Assembly: GCA_002708415.1 (NCBI GenBank)
Contig: PANS01000034.1
Span: forward strand, 1-34,357
DNA: 34,357 nucleotides
Source: Micavibrio sp.
GTDB lineage: Bacteria > Pseudomonadota > Alphaproteobacteria > Micavibrionales > Micavibrionaceae
Reading direction: 5' to 3'
Shown: positions 10,759 to 23,714 of the stretch, one piece after another
Layout of the letters: each line of letters begins with the position of its first letter
Numbering within the stretch: the stretch's first letter is position 1
The notes under the pieces: generated by a model
What the model saw: the letters and a program-made list of their open reading frames with translations, nothing else
The model's database searches: none
Told to the model about the DNA's origin: nothing
Position numbers and translations under genes: made by a program

Positions 10759-10787
10759 AAGATAAAGAGACAGTTACAATATTGCAA
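10759..10787 (-). promoter_or_regulatory. Likely promoter of the 46-aa protein-secreted protein-xerD operon
   Basis: On the minus strand TTGCAA (10782-10787), a 17-bp spacer and TATCTT (10759-10764), with the start codon about 37 bases downstream of the -10. It sits in the divergent gap with aroK. Confidence 0.4.
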
Positions 10788-10835
10788 TCAGCGATTATGC
10801 TTGCGAATTTTAGGCGTTTATGTAATTTAACGCGC

Positions 10836-11429
10836 ATGGAAATGGATATTTCAATACAAATTGAGTTTATAAAGGCAACTTTATCTGAAACAGGCCAGTC
10901 GATTACGTTAGTTGGTTTGATGGGAGCTGGAAAGACCAAGCTTGGCAAAGAACTGGCTATGGCTTTGGGGCTTGAGTTTAAAGATTCTGATGATCTTATT
11001 GTTGAGCGTTATGGCGCAATATCTGACATATTTGCTACGCAGGGTGAACCTAAGTTCCGTGAAATGGAGAAAGAGGCTATTGCTGACCTTATATCAGGTC
11101 AGCCAAAAGTTCTTTCGACTGGCGGCGGTGCATTTGTTCAAGAGCAAACGCGTGAGTTGATGAAAGATGGTGCTATATCAATTTGGTTAAATGCTGATTT
11201 GGAAACACTTTATAATCGTGTGAAGGATAAGAAACATCGTCCTTTACTCGAAACTGGAGAAGATAAGCGTATTATTTTACAAAAATTTATTGATAATCGC
11301 TATCCAACATATGCTTTAGCAGATGTAAAAGCCGTGATCACGGATGAAGGCGTGGCAACAAAAGAAGAATCTATTGCACAAAATCGTGATCGGGTCATAA
11401 ACGCTCTATACATGCACCTGAAGCCCTAG
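10836..11429 (+). CDS. aroK: Shikimate kinase
   Basis: AroK phosphorylates shikimate at O3 with ATP, the fifth step of the shikimate pathway. The P-loop GLMGAGKT is at residues 27-34 of this start. The shikimate-binding segments DSDDLIVERYG, FREMEKEAI and STGGGAF and the lid segment KKHRPLL are visible. Length is ~197 aa. Starts at TTG 10782, ATG 10797, ATG 10836 and ATG 10842 are all possible. I prefer 10836 because it leaves room for divergent promoters and gives a typical N-terminus; no Shine-Dalgarno decides it. aroB follows 15 bp later, so the two consecutive-pathway enzymes are co-transcribed. Confidence 0.93.
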   Translation: MEMDISIQIEFIKATLSETGQSITLVGLMGAGKTKLGKELAMALGLEFKDSDDLIVERYGAISDIFATQGEPKFREMEKEAIADLISGQPKVLSTGGGAFVQEQTRELMKDGAISIWLNADLETLYNRVKDKKHRPLLETGEDKRIILQKFIDNRYPTYALADVKAVITDEGVATKEESIAQNRDRVINALYMHLKP

Positions 11430-11444
11430 TAATATCCTTCCGTT

Positions 11445-12566
11445 ATGACACAAAAGCTATCGTTAGATCTAGGCAGTGAACAAGATGGGCGCGCCTATGA
11501 TATTCACATTGGCAAAGGCCTCATTGAGCAAGTTGCTGATCTTATTCCAATGGACTTAAAAGGCCGCAATGTTTTTGTTCTTTATGACCAAAATACGTAT
11601 CCTTATGTGCAGGTGATGGAAGAGGCGCTTGGTAATGCGGGCGCGGAAACAAAAATCCATGCGGAAAAAGGCGGCGAACCAACAAAATCTTATGATGGTT
11701 ATTATTGTGTGATGAATTGGCTATTAGACAATGGCGTGAATCGCCAATCTGTTTTGATTGCTGTAGGTGGGGGTGTGATCGGTGATCTTGGAGGTTTTGC
11801 GGCAGCAACGGTGATGCGCGGTATTCCATTTGTTCAGGTACCAACGACTTTACTCGCACAAGTTGATAGCTCGGTTGGCGGTAAGACGGGAATCAATACG
11901 GCGCAAGGGAAGAACCTTGTTGGTGCATTTTACCAACCCAAAACGGTGATTTGTGATATTGGCACGCTTGGTACGTTACCAGAGCGTGAGCTTAAATCTG
12001 GTTATGCCGAAATTGTAAAATATGGGCTTATTAACGATTTTGAATTTTTTGAATGGCTTGAAGAAAATGGCGAGAAAGTTTTAGCGCTTGATGAAGAAGC
12101 TTTAACGTACGCGGTTCATAAATCTTGTTCAGCTAAAGCGGCAGTTGTGGCAGCGGATGAGCGTGAAGCAGGACAGCGCGCTTTACTAAATCTTGGCCAC
12201 ACTTTTGGTCATGCACTAGAAGCGGCGGCAAATTACGATGGGCGCTTACTTCATGGTGAAGCGGTTTCCATTGGTATGGTTATGGCTTTTGATTTGTCTG
12301 CAAAGATGGGGTTATGTTCACAAGAAGAGCCTGCGCGTGTTGAAGCGCACTTGAAATCATGCGGTCTTAAAACGCGTGTAACAGATATTGCGCCGAATAT
12401 AACGCAATCAGCAGATGATCTTTGGAATAATATGACGCGTGATAAAAAGGCTGCTGGTGGAAAAATAGGGTTTATTTTGGCGCGTGGCATTGGGAAGGCG
12501 TTTCAATCTTATGATGTAGATGAAGAGCTTGTGACGTTTTTATTAAATGAAAGTCTGGCGAGTTAA
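11445..12566 (+). CDS. aroB: 3-dehydroquinate synthase
   Basis: AroB cyclises DAHP to 3-dehydroquinate using NAD and a divalent metal, the second step of the shikimate pathway. The 373-aa length is normal. NAD-binding GGGVIGDLGGF (108-118), PTTLLAQVDSSVGGKTGIN (133-151) and the metal ligands E189 (SGYAEIVKYG), H252 (NLGHTFGHALE) and H270 (LHGEAVSIGM) are visible. It follows aroK, and its TAA overlaps the ATG of the next membrane protein by one base, so all three are probably translated from one mRNA. Confidence 0.97.
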   Translation: MTQKLSLDLGSEQDGRAYDIHIGKGLIEQVADLIPMDLKGRNVFVLYDQNTYPYVQVMEEALGNAGAETKIHAEKGGEPTKSYDGYYCVMNWLLDNGVNRQSVLIAVGGGVIGDLGGFAAATVMRGIPFVQVPTTLLAQVDSSVGGKTGINTAQGKNLVGAFYQPKTVICDIGTLGTLPERELKSGYAEIVKYGLINDFEFFEWLEENGEKVLALDEEALTYAVHKSCSAKAAVVAADEREAGQRALLNLGHTFGHALEAAANYDGRLLHGEAVSIGMVMAFDLSAKMGLCSQEEPARVEAHLKSCGLKTRVTDIAPNITQSADDLWNNMTRDKKAAGGKIGFILARGIGKAFQSYDVDEELVTFLLNESLAS

Positions 12567-18729: not shown

Positions 18730-19497
18730 ATGCGTTATCCAACAGCTTATGATCTTAAAAGTTTTTATAATGGCTTCACTGGCCGTATTATTCGCAGCCT
18801 TATTCGTGCGCGTTTATTAGAGCTTTGGCCAGCGCAAAAAAGCTTGCGTTATGTTGGTCTTGGTTATGCTGCCCCTTATATGTACCCATTTATGGAACTA
18901 GCTGAACGCAGTTTTTGTGTTATGCCCCCTAATCTTGGTGTTCACCAATGGCCAGAAGAAGAAAGCAATTTAGCCTGTTTAGGCGAGGATTTTAATCTAC
19001 CGTTAGAAACGAACTCAGTTGATCGCATTCTTGTTGCACATCATTTAGAATTTCTTGAGCATCCAGAAAGCGCTTTTCGTGAAATGTACCGTGTCTTGAA
19101 AAGCACAGGAAAAATTATCATTGTTGTGCCAAATCGTATGGGGTTATGGGCGAGGGCGGATTGGTCACCTTTAGGAATGGGGCAGCCTTATTCGGCGCGT
19201 CAGGTAGAAGCATTTTTAAAGGATAACAATTTTGTTCATGAACGAACTTGTCAGGCTGTTTTTACGCCAGCCTTTCAGGGCGCATTATGGCTTCGTGCGG
19301 CTTTTATATTTGAGAAGATAGGTAAGTTTTTGTATCCAGCTTTAGGCGGTGTTCATATTATTGAAGCGTCAAAACAGCTCTATGCGACCAAAGGCCGTGG
19401 AACACCTGTGCGTGTGTCTGCGGGGGGGCGGGTTAAGAAAGCGCTTAGTCCTAAACCTGTACCAACACCAAACACTAGCCCTAAAGATAGAAATTAA
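18730..19497 (+). CDS. SAM-dependent methyltransferase-like protein (class I, Methyltransf_11 type)
   Basis: The 255-aa protein has a Rossmann methyltransferase layout. A degenerate motif I, RYVGLGYAAPYMYPF (about 38-52), is followed by NLPLETNSVDRILVAHHLEFLEHPESAFREMYRVLKSTG with the post-motif strands and helix, and then KIIIVVPNRMGLWAR. Motif I reads GLGYAAPY rather than a full GxGxG. The tail after residue 225 is basic, ending in KPVPTPNTSPKDRN. Relatives are common in alphaproteobacteria, with unknown substrate. AAGGG precedes the ATG. It converges with metA, with the stop codons overlapping by 4 bp. Confidence 0.8.
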   Translation: MRYPTAYDLKSFYNGFTGRIIRSLIRARLLELWPAQKSLRYVGLGYAAPYMYPFMELAERSFCVMPPNLGVHQWPEEESNLACLGEDFNLPLETNSVDRILVAHHLEFLEHPESAFREMYRVLKSTGKIIIVVPNRMGLWARADWSPLGMGQPYSARQVEAFLKDNNFVHERTCQAVFTPAFQGALWLRAAFIFEKIGKFLYPALGGVHIIEASKQLYATKGRGTPVRVSAGGRVKKALSPKPVPTPNTSPKDRN

Positions 19498-20546
19498 ATC
19501 CCCAGCGGATTATTTGGATCAATGCCATCCATAAATTGTTTCTTACGATCAACATTGGTGACTTGATAAACGTGACCGATCCAACTGGATAGAGCGGAGC
19601 GCGCACTATCTGCCCATGTATTTTCAAGCATTTCTTCTAATTTTGCCTCGGGAAATTCAATTTTTTCACCGTTTAAAATACAGTTTTTAAAATCATTTAA
19701 GATCACACTCGCCTCTTCGTTGAAATAATTTAGTGGGAAGGCAGGATAATCGTTACGCACACCGTTTAAATAATTTGTAACTTCGCGTTTATATTCTTTG
19801 AACAGGCTTACTGTGTCATATTCAGGGTGCCCTTGAAAACAAATCTGACGAAATCCATCTTGTGATGTGGCCATATGAACACCAGCTTCAGGGCTTTCAA
19901 CAAGAATCTTCATGCCAGCGGCTTCAAATTGTTCCCGCGTAATTTCACTATAACGAGAATGTGGAATATCAAAGCGCGTATTCATACCACGAATAAGAGG
20001 GTGTTTGCGGTTGATTGCTCTGTGTGAATAAACCCCCCATCTTTTATCTTCACGCCATGTTGGCACTTGTCCATGTACATAGGTGAGCATGGCATGTGAA
20101 GCAAAGCATGAGCAGATTGTTGATGCCACATTCTCAAAAGCCCACTCTAGAACATCGCGCAGAGATCCCCATGTTCCTTCTTCGCTCACGTGTGGGTTGG
20201 TTTCCTCGTTTGCTCCTGTGACGATCAGGCCATCAAGGCCAGCTTCTTGGATTTGTTCTAAGCTTTCATAATATTGATCAATATGCGCTTGTGTTGCTTC
20301 ATCACGATCAAAAATAGGTAGAGTAAAGGGGTGTATATATATTTGTGCCACGCGGTTACTTTCGCCAACAAGGCGAAAGAATTGACGTTCTGTGGCCTCT
20401 AAGGCTGCGTCAGGCATAATATTAAGAAACCCAATGTGTAATTCACGAATATCTTGGTGTGTAGCGCGATCTGCAGGTAAGATAGAACGCCCTTCACTAA
20501 GAAGTCGATCATAAGTTGGTAAATTAGATTGTTTAACGATAGGCAT
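19494..20546 (-). CDS. metA: Homoserine O-acyltransferase (MetA/HTS family)
   Basis: MetA acylates homoserine at the entry to methionine synthesis. The family features FLNIMPDAALEATERQFFRLV (in two parts, about 40-60), DGLIVTGA (105-112), C147 in SCFASHA as probable acyl nucleophile, and H240/E242 in FQGHPEYD match the Cys-His-Glu triad. Glu at 114/115 after VTGAN suggests acetyl-CoA rather than succinyl-CoA use, by analogy with the Glu/Gly switch known in the family. At 350 aa it is longer than E. coli MetA (~309), with an extended C-terminus. ATG 20546 (MPIVKQ, matching the usual MPI start, with GGGAA upstream) is preferred over 20567. Divergent from chorismate mutase. Confidence 0.9.
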   Translation of the reverse strand: MPIVKQSNLPTYDRLLSEGRSILPADRATHQDIRELHIGFLNIMPDAALEATERQFFRLVGESNRVAQIYIHPFTLPIFDRDEATQAHIDQYYESLEQIQEAGLDGLIVTGANEETNPHVSEEGTWGSLRDVLEWAFENVASTICSCFASHAMLTYVHGQVPTWREDKRWGVYSHRAINRKHPLIRGMNTRFDIPHSRYSEITREQFEAAGMKILVESPEAGVHMATSQDGFRQICFQGHPEYDTVSLFKEYKREVTNYLNGVRNDYPAFPLNYFNEEASVILNDFKNCILNGEKIEFPEAKLEEMLENTWADSARSALSSWIGHVYQVTNVDRKKQFMDGIDPNNPLGI

Positions 20547-20632
20547 GAAGATTGATTTCCCATTCATTGATTTTATAAGCGAAACACACTACAACATTAT
20601 TTTTTAACAAAGCTAACACATATTGAGCAAAG

Positions 20633-21550
20633 ATGGCCCACAAACCGTACAAATCAAAAGATCTAGATGCAATTCGTCAAAAAATTGATGAATTAGATAC
20701 ACGGATTCACGATACCTTGAAAGAGAGAGCGGAGCTTGTTCTTAAGATTGGTGAAGAAAAACGTAAGAACAATATAGAGATTGTGCAACCTGCGCGTGAA
20801 GCGCAAATGATCCGTCGTTTGTTATCTAAGCATAAGGGTGTTTTACCAGAAATGGCTGTTGTGCGTATCTGGCGTGAGCTTGTGGGGGCTGTGTCTCTTT
20901 TACAAACAGGGCTTAAAGTTGCTGTTGCGGAAATTGATGGACATCCAGAAAATTGGGATTTAGCAAAAGATTATTTTGGCAGCTGTTTGCCGATGCAGCG
21001 TGTGCCAACGGCGTTGTCAGCTATTGGTTTGGTGCGTGAAGCAAAAGTAAATTTTGCGGTATTGCCTTGGCCAGAAGATCAAGAAGATCAGCCGTGGTGG
21101 GATTATTTAGCATCCGATTCAGAAACACCCATACAGATTATTGTACGCTTGCCGCACGGTGATGATCCTAATGAGCTAAATCCAAGTTATCGCGCGCTTG
21201 TTGTTGCAAAGGCTGGATTTGAAGAGTCGGGTGATGATAATTCATTCTTGATGATTGACTGTGAAGAAAGTGTAAGCCGCGCACGCATTGCAGCAAAGGC
21301 TGAAGAGGCTGGGTTGAAGCCTCTTAGTATTTCGACTAAACACGCCAGTGATGCGGATCAGGATCATAAACATCTTTTAGAGGTAGGTGGGTATATGGTT
21401 CAAGGTGATAAAAAGGTAAAAGCGCTACTAAAACTTCTTGGTGAGGAAGAAAATAAAATTACGTGTATTGGTGGATACCCTGTTCCATCGACTTATTCAA
21501 AAACAATTATAGCGCGTGAGGATACTATTCCCAATGCGCCGAAGGCATAA
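20633..21550 (+). CDS. Chorismate mutase (AroQ) fused to a degenerate prephenate-dehydratase-like region
   Basis: Residues 8-92 form an AroQ helical chorismate mutase (LDAIRQKIDELDTRIHDTLKER; KIGEEKR; PAREAQMIRRL; IWRELVGA), which converts chorismate to prephenate. The remaining ~210 residues show the outline of a prephenate dehydratase plus ACT fold. VAVAEIDGHPENWDLAKDYFG matches the PDT start, EAKVNFAVLPWPED matches the GVLPIENS strand, and KITCIGGYPVPS matches the end of an ACT domain. The PDT catalytic Thr-Arg-Phe aligns with N203-S204-F205 (DNSFLMID), so dehydratase activity is unlikely. The pseudo-domain may serve in regulation. First gene of the Phe/Tyr cluster, 5 bp before hisC; divergent from metA. 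Confidence 0.88.
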   Translation: MAHKPYKSKDLDAIRQKIDELDTRIHDTLKERAELVLKIGEEKRKNNIEIVQPAREAQMIRRLLSKHKGVLPEMAVVRIWRELVGAVSLLQTGLKVAVAEIDGHPENWDLAKDYFGSCLPMQRVPTALSAIGLVREAKVNFAVLPWPEDQEDQPWWDYLASDSETPIQIIVRLPHGDDPNELNPSYRALVVAKAGFEESGDDNSFLMIDCEESVSRARIAAKAEEAGLKPLSISTKHASDADQDHKHLLEVGGYMVQGDKKVKALLKLLGEEENKITCIGGYPVPSTYSKTIIAREDTIPNAPKA

Positions 21551-21555
21551 ATAAG

Positions 21556-22641
21556 ATGTTTCAATTTAAAACCAAGAAAACGATTCTAGATATCAGACCG
21601 TATGTTCCAGGTGAGAGTAAGTCAGATAGCACTGAACGGCTTGTAAAGCTGTCTTCAAACGAAGGGGCATTTGGTCCATCCCCTAAAGCCGTAAAAGCTA
21701 TGCAAGAAGCAGCTACTAATATGCACCGTTATCCTGATGGCGATGCAAATATTTTGCGCGATGCAATAGCCAAGAAAAATAATATTGATAAAAAGAATAT
21801 TATTTGCGGCGCGGGGTCTGATGAAATTATCATGTTCTTGTGTCAGGCTTTTGCGGGTGAAGGGGATGAGGTTCTCCATTCTGAGCACGGCTTTTTGATG
21901 TATTCAATTTATGCGAAAGCGGCAGGGGCGACGCCAGTCAGTGCACCAGAAAAAGATTTAATAGCGGATCCGCAGGCGCTTCTTGATAAAGTTACAGATA
22001 AAACGCGCCTTATCTTTTTAGCTAATCCAAATAATCCAACAGGCACATATTGGACACGCCAGACAGTGGTTGATTTTCACACGAGATTACCAAAGAACGT
22101 TATTCTAGTTTTAGATTCTGCGTACGCTGAATTTGTTGATGATCCTGACTATACTGCGGGGCATGATTTGGTTAAGCAACACAATAATATTGTTGTAACG
22201 CGTACTTTTTCAAAGCTTTATGGTCTTGGCGGTGTTCGTTTGGGGTGGGGACACGCATCTGATGAAATTATTGATATTTTGAATCGTATTCGCGGGCCTT
22301 TTAATGCCAATAGGTGTGCGCAAGCTGCTGGTGTTGCTGCGCTCAATGATGATGAGTTTGTTCAACAATCAATTGAGCATAATAAAAAAATGCTTGATTG
22401 GGTTAGCGCTGAGTTGATATCTCTCGGTCTTGATGTCGTGCCATCACAAGGGAATTTCGTAATTGTTGACTTTGGCGACGAAGAGCGTGCGGAAGGATGC
22501 CGTTTATACCTTAAAGAGCAAAATATCTTTGTTCGTCAGATTGGCGGATATGGTTTACCGACCTATTTGCGTATCTCTATCGGGCTTGAGGATGAAATGA
22601 AGCTTGCTTTAGAGGCTATTTGCGCGTATTTAAGTAAATAA
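21556..22641 (+). CDS. hisC: Histidinol-phosphate / aromatic aminotransferase (HisC family)
   Basis: A fold-type I PLP aminotransferase of 361 aa. The PLP lysine is K220 in RTFSKLYGLGG. LSSNEGAFGPSP, CGAGSDEIIMF, LANPNNPTGTYW and the C-terminal LRISIG are family motifs. HisC proteins act in histidine synthesis, but the location between chorismate mutase and prephenate dehydrogenase points to use on prephenate, phenylpyruvate or hydroxyphenylpyruvate in Phe/Tyr synthesis, and many HisC enzymes do both. It follows chorismate mutase by 5 bp. Substrate preference cannot be read from sequence. Confidence 0.92.
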   Translation: MFQFKTKKTILDIRPYVPGESKSDSTERLVKLSSNEGAFGPSPKAVKAMQEAATNMHRYPDGDANILRDAIAKKNNIDKKNIICGAGSDEIIMFLCQAFAGEGDEVLHSEHGFLMYSIYAKAAGATPVSAPEKDLIADPQALLDKVTDKTRLIFLANPNNPTGTYWTRQTVVDFHTRLPKNVILVLDSAYAEFVDDPDYTAGHDLVKQHNNIVVTRTFSKLYGLGGVRLGWGHASDEIIDILNRIRGPFNANRCAQAAGVAALNDDEFVQQSIEHNKKMLDWVSAELISLGLDVVPSQGNFVIVDFGDEERAEGCRLYLKEQNIFVRQIGGYGLPTYLRISIGLEDEMKLALEAICAYLSK

Positions 22642-22654
22642 TGATTGATTCATT

Positions 22655-22725
22655 CACGATAGCTTATCTTTCTTTTGTAGCGCAAAGCTATACTTATCGT
22701 GCGCAGTATTCCGCTTAAGCGGAAT
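22655..22725. promoter_or_regulatory. Structured leader between hisC and the prephenate dehydrogenase gene
   Basis: CACGA+TAGCTT (22655-22665) can pair with AAGCTA (22685-22690) and TCGTG (22697-22701), leaving a 6-base bulge. It is followed by an 18-bp perfect palindrome ATTCCGCTTAAGCGGAAT (22708-22725). No U-run follows, so this is not a standard terminator. It may be an operator, an RNA processing site or an attenuator in the 160-bp gap of the cluster. Confidence 0.4.
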
Positions 22726-22802
22726 TTACATTGTCTTCTCATCCATATTTTTATATTTAATTTAAGACACTCTTTGAAAGAAAAGAGTATAAAGAAAGAC
22801 GT

Positions 22803-23714
22803 ATGATGTTTAAACAAATTACAATTATAGGCTTTGGATTGATAGGCTCGTCCATAGCCAGAGCGGTGAAAAAAAACGATCTCGCTAAAAAAATTATCTG
22901 TGGTGATGTATCGCAAGAGGTTTGCAATACAGTTTCCTCCTTGGGACTAGCAGATGTTGCTATTACTGATTTGGCGGTCAGCGTTAAGGGTAGTGATCTG
23001 GTTATCCTTTGTGTGCCCGTGGGTAAAATGGGTGGCGTTGCAGAAAAAATTGCAAACGATTTAAAAGAGAATGCTATTGTTAGTGACGTAGGCTCTGTTA
23101 AAAAAGAAGTGATTGCGCAACTACAACCTGTTCTACCAAATACAGTTCATCTTGTCCCAGGACACCCCATTGCGGGAACAGAGTTCTCAGGGCCAGAGCA
23201 TGGTTTTGCTGAATTATTTGAAGGGCGTTGGTGTATTTTAACGCCGCAAGAACATACGGAGCTTAAAGCTGTTGAAAAAATGACGCTATTTTGGGAGGCT
23301 TGTGGTTCAAATATTGAAATTATGGAGTCGGGACACCATGATTTGGTTCTTGGTATTACCTCTCACTTGCCGCACTTGATTGCTTACACAATTGTCGGGA
23401 CGGCCAATGATTTGGAAGATGATATCAAATCTGAAGTGATTAAATTTTCGGCTTCTGGTTTTCGTGATTTTACGCGCATTGCGGCGAGCAATCCAACGAT
23501 GTGGCGTGATGTGTTTTTAAATAATAAGGAGGCTGTTTTAGAGGTTTTACAACGTTTCTCTGAAGATCTTTCTGGCCTTCAAAAAGCGATCCGTAAAGGA
23601 GATGGAGATTATCTTTATCAACACTTTAGTGATACGCGCGCGATAAGGCGTGCCATTGTTGATGCAGGACAAGCTGAACCCGAAGAGATAAAAGTTCTGA
23701 ATAAGAAAAGTTAA
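22803..23714 (+). CDS. tyrA: Prephenate/arogenate dehydrogenase (TyrA/TyrC family)
   Basis: This NAD(P)-dependent enzyme oxidatively decarboxylates prephenate or arogenate toward tyrosine. The 303-aa protein has the dinucleotide motif GFGLIGS at 10-16 and the segments DVGSVKKEV, LVPGHPIAGTEFSGPEHGF and RDFTRIAASNPTMWRDVF typical of the PDH fold. There is no chorismate mutase domain and no obvious ACT domain. Third gene of the aromatic cluster after chorismate mutase and the aminotransferase. The start is ATG 22803, with ATG 22806 equally possible. Its stop overlaps the plsC stop on the other strand by 4 bp. Confidence 0.92.
   Translation: MMFKQITIIGFGLIGSSIARAVKKNDLAKKIICGDVSQEVCNTVSSLGLADVAITDLAVSVKGSDLVILCVPVGKMGGVAEKIANDLKENAIVSDVGSVKKEVIAQLQPVLPNTVHLVPGHPIAGTEFSGPEHGFAELFEGRWCILTPQEHTELKAVEKMTLFWEACGSNIEIMESGHHDLVLGITSHLPHLIAYTIVGTANDLEDDIKSEVIKFSASGFRDFTRIAASNPTMWRDVFLNNKEAVLEVLQRFSEDLSGLQKAIRKGDGDYLYQHFSDTRAIRRAIVDAGQAEPEEIKVLNKKS

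Follow-up and report, generated by a model that had tools for sequence, protein, structure and literature searches.

An AroQ-type chorismate mutase of Micavibrio sp. carrying a PDT/ACT remnant without the dehydratase motifs

The described system closest to the gene reported here is the bifunctional AroQ-PheA P-protein, which joins a chorismate mutase (CM) to a prephenate dehydratase (PDT) and an ACT domain. The PDT catalytic unit is made of two subdomains, and the VPxEN and Thr-Arg-Phe motifs of PDT have catalytic roles; the GAL and ESRP motifs we take to be its phenylalanine (Phe) site. Prephenate also decomposes spontaneously (PMC11535334). Feedback control of the pathway has been well studied in other bacteria. 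For the proteobacterial ancestor, PMC1173090 proposes an aroQ-pheA gene placed before hisC and tyrA, and for the alphaproteobacterial ancestor it infers that the aroQ-pheA fusion was lost.

Here we describe a CM gene of Micavibrio sp. (GenBank assembly GCA_002708415.1) located in a stretch of 34,357 nucleotides (contig PANS01000034.1, positions 1 to 34,357 of the forward strand) that was analyzed as a whole and is called the window below. Residue counts were made across 38 family members (the window protein and 37 relatives) and compared with 15 P-proteins, which came from 30 fetched loci, the remainder of which was unused. Start codons of the relatives were picked mechanically; L015 was left out as the same gene as L005, and L029 (start missing, 247 aa) was left out of the residue counts, the alignments and the CM tree.

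The family resembles P-proteins in its domain order, its collinear profile alignment, its CM clade and its position before hisC and tyrA, but differs from them in lacking about 79 PDT residues together with the VPxEN, Thr-Arg-Phe, GAL and ESRP motifs. Stand-alone alphaproteobacterial PDTs (PRK11899) have the PDT and ACT folds in common with it; unlike the family, however, the two stand-alone PDTs of the source genome (L001 and L002) are of full PDT length and retain Thr-Arg-Phe, and no CM was found at any of 30 stand-alone PDT loci. Stand-alone AroQ CMs of the class would catalyze the same reaction, but they fall in another part of the CM tree, occupy frames of 96-160 aa as extracted and have no PDT match. 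The four PRK06034 models (NF004695-NF004698, named "hypothetical protein") span 267-287 positions, a length similar to that of the family, and all four are matched by 38 of the 38 members with E-values up to 0.001; the cut-offs, however, are 311-413 bits, and the 69-81 bits of the window protein mark it as a distant relative. The models carry no function. Among open-licence PMC papers we found none on this family, which is a weak negative.

Gene, neighborhood and host genome

The forward strand carries an intact ORF with the exact bounds 20633-21550; in its product of 305 aa, an AroQ-type CM is followed by a PDT/ACT remnant without dehydratase motifs. The CM (AroQ, CM_2) domain is encoded at 20654..20905 (+; residues 8-91) and is matched by Pfam CM_2 (PF01817) at residues 14-91 (E-value 9.3e-19; 67.9 bits against a cut-off of 27). 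Using an active-site residue list (Arg/Lys/Glu/Gln) that we assume from E. coli CM, we found R15, R32, K43 and R55 in all 38 members and E56 in 37; position 91 is Gln in 33 members and Glu in 5, and the positions equivalent to E. coli D48 and S84 vary among members. With these residues in place, the domain is predicted to convert chorismate to prephenate. The best CM-only NCBIfam model for the window protein was CM_P2 (TIGR01807; 63.9 bits against a cut-off of 69.55), which we take to describe the CM domain of one P-protein clade and which was matched by 38/38 members.

Downstream, a HisC-type aminotransferase gene (21556..22641, +) has its start codon 5 bases past the end of the CM gene and is followed by a gene for TyrA, a prephenate/arogenate dehydrogenase (22803..23714, +). 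Of 38 related loci, 32 have hisC after the CM gene in the same orientation and 30 have tyrA downstream, counts that include L029 and for which most flanks extend only 1.5 kb; at L006, L007 and L008, tyrA follows the CM gene and a hisC match is absent from the fetched flanks. Upstream, a MetA-type homoserine acyltransferase gene (19494-20567, -) is divergent from the CM gene at a distance of 65 bases, and 7 of 10 close relatives have such a gene, oppositely oriented, in the upstream position. About 8 kb upstream of the CM gene, aroK and aroB (shikimate kinase and 3-dehydroquinate synthase) are adjacent at 10782-12566. The 161 bases between hisC and tyrA (22642-22802) hold inverted-repeat-like sequence with no Rfam match and no terminator call. 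Rfam gave no match in the window at gathering thresholds, and near the CM gene promoter-like sites (12 versus 7.9 in shuffles, sd 2.5) and terminator-like sites (2 versus 2.8) were at about the shuffle level.

The source genome (1.37 Mb, estimated 77% complete) contains the window gene as its only CM_2 match; G136, a genome of the same genus that is 99% complete, has a second CM. The preliminary description had reasoned that Phe synthesis would need another dehydratase, and a genome search for a separate pheA turned up two stand-alone PDT genes, L001, which passes the PRK11899 cut-off, and L002, which falls short of it; both are of full PDT length and have an intact Thr-Arg-Phe. In G136 the sole PDT match is of the L001 kind (L125). 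Both L001 (1489-2325) and L125 adjoin a cytochrome c-like ORF (by eye) and read I-A-x-D-N at the V-P-x-E-N position of the P-proteins. L002 (1186-2163) is a second, divergent PDT with V-P-V-E-N and S-H-P-Q-A-L-A-Q-C motifs.

Fold and missing dehydratase parts of the C-terminal region

A full-length AlphaFold2 model was built from 11 sequences (mean pLDDT 71.6); its CM part was poor (ten-residue means of 44-66), and residues 91-280 had means of 69-96. Foldseek against the PDB returned at ranks 1-16 prephenate dehydratases, GqqA, or a PDT-like "putative chorismate mutase". By VIA-align, residues 91-289 gave Z-scores of 13.7-15.6 for eight PDT-type PDB entries against 5.5 for the next entry, and the C-terminal region modeled alone (pLDDT 79.1) gave 13.9-16.2 to PDT-type entries and 5.3 to the next. 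For both models the top three Foldseek rows were 4lub and 7alz chains of only 188-194 residues, a ranking that would make sense if those chains, too, lack the part that is missing here or have it disordered. In sequence searches, Pfam matched the window protein with CM_2 only, leaving PDT (PF00800) unmatched, and found PDT in one of the 38 members (E-value 0.21); the family profile matched 22 PDB sequences, with no PDT chain among them, so the link to PDT rests on folds and on profile-profile comparison. On the strength of the models, the C-terminal region is predicted to have a PDT/ACT-type fold. The preliminary description, which saw a CM followed by a region of PDT/ACT outline and proposed structure prediction against PDT, is borne out in this respect by the CM_2 match, the Z-scores of 13.7-15.6 and a profile E-value of 3.4e-12 to P-proteins.

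Part 1 of the PDT remnant (20906..21079, +; residues 92-149) aligns with P-proteins up to VPxEN and is followed by a deletion-bearing stretch (21080..21187, +; residues 150-185) with about 79 residues fewer than in P-proteins. The span from VPxEN to the Thr-Arg-Phe position is 41 residues in the window protein and 37-45 in 38/38 members, versus 118-125 in P-proteins, which leaves about 79 residues gone between the two positions; the gap point lies within residues 150-185, where aligners split the gap differently. The Ser-His-Pro-Gln and Ala-Gln-Cys segments of the P-proteins fall in the gap, and nothing in the displayed family rows corresponds to them. The deleted part would correspond to the second PDT subdomain. 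At the VPxEN position the window protein reads L-P-W-P-E; the Glu of this motif is found in 0/38 members and its Asn in 2/38, each against 15/15 P-proteins. Of the triplet, Thr is kept in 1, Arg in 8 and Phe in 0 of the 38 members, compared with 15, 15 and 14 of the 15 P-proteins.

The site of the PDT Thr-Arg-Phe strand (21188..21208, +; residues 186-192, YRALVVA) was located from the P-protein alignments, in which Y186-R187-A188 takes the place of the triplet; the alignment with alphaproteobacterial PDTs places it likewise, although this segment is weak alone (E-value 0.015), and under global settings hhalign aligned no more than 3 or 9 columns. The earlier assignment of the triplet to Asn-Ser-Phe was wrong: both alignments rule out N203-S204-F205 (21239..21247, +) as the catalytic triplet, since its partner in the alignments is the K-T-S at the head of the ACT domain, and it marks the start of ACT strand 1.

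The ACT-like domain (21230..21490, +; residues 200-286) is modeled as strand-helix-strand-strand-helix-strand, and its GAL and ESRP motifs are gone. In this part, where the alignment is less certain, the Gly and Leu of GAL occur in 0/38 and 1/38 members and the Glu, Arg and Pro of ESRP in 0/38, 2/38 and 2/38; no member of the 38 has either motif in full. With both motifs lost, Phe sensing of the usual kind becomes unlikely, and so, as read from the sequences, does the usual Phe feedback through GAL and ESRP in the remnant, which may have another ligand or a binding partner. The regulation by Phe or Tyr that the preliminary description envisaged is therefore a conjecture. The C-terminal tail (21491..21547, +; residues 287-305) follows with mostly low model confidence.

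From the missing parts we infer a C-terminal region without dehydratase activity. The idea of a decayed PDT domain holds for the loss of the catalytic parts and fails as a local, recent event, because the 37 other aligned members share the deletion and the motif losses; the crippled arrangement looks like an ancient, kept part rather than recent decay. The deletion of about 79 residues, the loss of VPxEN and the wide occurrence of the family in the class go beyond the preliminary description.

Descent, constraint and distribution of the family

The family profile aligned collinearly with the 15 P-proteins over 283 columns (E-value 2.2e-35). The C-terminal region alone reached E-values of 3.4e-12 to P-protein PDT-ACT and 6.9e-5 to alphaproteobacterial stand-alone PDT, with reversed-column controls for the C-terminal profile at 0.36 and 0.25, respectively. 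The family CM profile scored 60-95 bits on 13 P-proteins, 23-30 on two E. coli-type P-proteins and 24-44 on 20 stand-alone CMs. For the CM half and the PDT/ACT half alike, P-protein profiles are the nearer match and stand-alone CM or PDT the more remote one, with the two E. coli-type P-proteins as an exception. The CM tree comprised 74 rows and 86 columns. In it, the 38 members formed one clade (99/96) within a clade holding 13 of the 15 P-proteins (99/94) and adjoined L103 (98/89). Outside the P-protein/family clade fell the two E. coli-type P-proteins, together with the 20 stand-alone CMs from the class; the exact sister is uncertain because the CM alignment is short and many forks are open. 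The row L090_mono of this tree, a frame of 386 residues next to an enteric-type P-protein, is probably an AroQ-TyrA protein. Judged by these comparisons, the family descends from a bifunctional AroQ-PheA P-protein, and since the present gene occupies the aroQ-pheA position it would be the same fusion, kept without its dehydratase.

Four residues at well-aligned positions are common in the family and found in 0/15 P-proteins: P147 (35/38 members), A188 (34/38), R216 (33/38) and P285 (38/38). The family invariants W155, W156, L173 and P174 lie in the stretch with the gap, over which the alignment to P-proteins is ambiguous; for this reason W156 and P174 were dropped as family-new residues and kept only as family invariants. 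Across the 38 members, nine C-terminal columns do not vary. In the PDT remnant, comparison with two relatives gave omega values of 0.18 and 0.15. Of the 12 region comparisons, 8 had an infinite dS, which makes their printed omega of 0 meaningless, most other comparisons were saturated, and the values of 0.02 for CM and 0.08 for ACT rest on dS > 2. Mean pairwise identity within the family across the wider class was 0.49 for CM, 0.41 for the first PDT part and 0.32 for ACT, compared with 0.48, 0.56 and 0.52 among 13 P-proteins. By these measures the remnant is constrained, less strictly than in intact P-proteins.

A survey of the class, taken to be Alphaproteobacteria, found matches to the window protein in 117 of 190 genomes, extending beyond residue 160 in 104 and shorter in 13. 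Among the 104 genomes with the gene, 98 also carry a PDT and 76 have a single CM_2 match (the search covered CMs of the CM_2 type). Loci were fetched for ten of the 13 genomes with shorter matches, and four of them show CM only. L129, L130, L132 and L133 have shortened remnants (C-terminal profile E-values of 2.3e-7 to 0.026), L131 probably has one too (full-family profile only), and in L134 (G161) a frame from 686 holds CM and then, by eye, a HisC-like aminotransferase in frame, the remnant being absent. At L129 (G063, 21-2940) there lie in a row a 457 aa ORF, which to us looks like a type II DAHP synthase, a 183 aa PDT ORF with no room for an ACT domain, and the 249 aa shortened CM-remnant gene.

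Over 200 genomes of the phylum, the C-terminal profile matched 47, of which 23 are in the class and 24 outside it. Eight of the in-class matches were nearly full length (E-values up to 4.1e-43) and 15 were weaker and mostly partial. The out-of-class matches (E-values of 6.6e-8 to 9.3e-4) were confined to frames of 358-444 aa and to profile positions 7-60 or 80-194, which are the two sides of the deletion. Within the taxonomic family of the window, 41 of 61 genomes have the gene (E-value < 1e-30); the other 20, the same-genus G430 among them, have a short CM match only (11 genomes) or none (9 genomes), so that the CM-remnant gene appears dispensable. PDT was found in 39 of the 41 genomes with the gene and in 19 of the 20 without it, and a TyrA-family match in 60 of the 61, over cut-off in 57.

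Role of the remnant and competing explanations

Taking together the predicted fold, the deletion, the motif losses, the descent, the gene order and the constraint, all obtained by computation, we consider it probable that the protein is a CM from a P-protein that lost one part of its PDT and whose remaining, non-catalytic module was kept and may shape oligomerization and allosteric CM control. An ancestor of the family would have had one dehydratase part, by its position subdomain 2, deleted from an AroQ-PheA P-protein and would have lost the dehydratase residues and the canonical Phe-site motifs. The CM domain would still make prephenate, which the neighboring HisC/TyrA pair would turn into tyrosine and the separate PheA proteins into phenylalanine. 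With prephenate dehydration gone, the half-PDT and ACT would be kept as a folded non-catalytic module, shaping CM oligomerization and allosteric control via a remodeled ACT surface.

A non-catalytic structural or regulatory role is our best guess for the remnant. Ligand-responsive regulation has, in our estimate, a little under an even chance; a purely structural or partner-binding role is a rather unlikely possibility, and some other role an improbable one. The case for an important module is weakened by the faster evolution of the remnant, the absence of the gene from 20/61 genomes, the shortened remnants and L134. More tentatively still than ligand-responsive regulation, we suggest that the alphaproteobacterial P-protein was never lost and was instead converted, through excision of a portion of the dehydratase, into a CM now widespread in the class, whose dead dehydratase/ACT half is a new allosteric sensor.

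In the alternative that survives best, the module serves as a docking surface between CM and HisC, TyrA or a separate PheA and channels prephenate. It would fit the order CM-hisC-tyrA, the 5 bases from CM to hisC, the downstream hisC in 32/38 loci and the single frame of CM and HisC-like sequence in L134 (by eye), and a Mycobacterium CM is reported to work in a complex with another aromatic enzyme (PMC4281200); gene order by itself, however, accounts for co-expression, and we hold docking to be unlikely. That the remnant is a near-neutral leftover, with only CM mattering and the C-terminal body persisting for CM stability, we find quite doubtful: the match reaches the remnant in 104/190 class genomes, nine C-terminal columns are invariant, R216 and P285 are family-kept, unlike in P-proteins, and omega is about 0.15-0.18, although the remnant evolves faster than in P-proteins, shortened versions exist, the L134 CM frame runs into HisC-like sequence without a remnant, and 20/61 genomes of the window's family do without the gene. 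A C-terminal region that still dehydrates prephenate via a new active site is very improbable, because the catalytic unit is short of about 79 residues, the motif residues counted survive only here and there and stand-alone PDTs occur in 98/104 genomes with the gene, and in its favor we found nothing beyond the remaining fold. A mere resemblance of the C-terminal region to an unrelated PDT, as the CM_2-only Pfam result, the single PDT match at an E-value of 0.21 and the 22 PDB sequences without a PDT might suggest, is hardly credible in view of the fold matches, the profile matches with reversed controls and the 24 out-of-class genomes matched only in frames of 358-444 aa on both sides of the deletion.

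The full-length NCBIfam models nearest to this widespread family are called "hypothetical protein"; these results identify the family by structure and by descent, as a probable CM with a kept, non-catalytic PDT/ACT module. The module would be a natural example of a pseudoenzyme domain that arose when part of a catalytic unit was excised. The results would also correct the inference of PMC1173090 that the fusion was lost in the alphaproteobacterial ancestor, as 104 of 190 sampled class genomes have a protein matching beyond CM and hisC follows in 32 of the 38 loci examined for gene order. If the sensor reading is true, the remnant would be an allosteric sensor, of tyrosine or another pathway metabolite, at the Phe/Tyr branch point.
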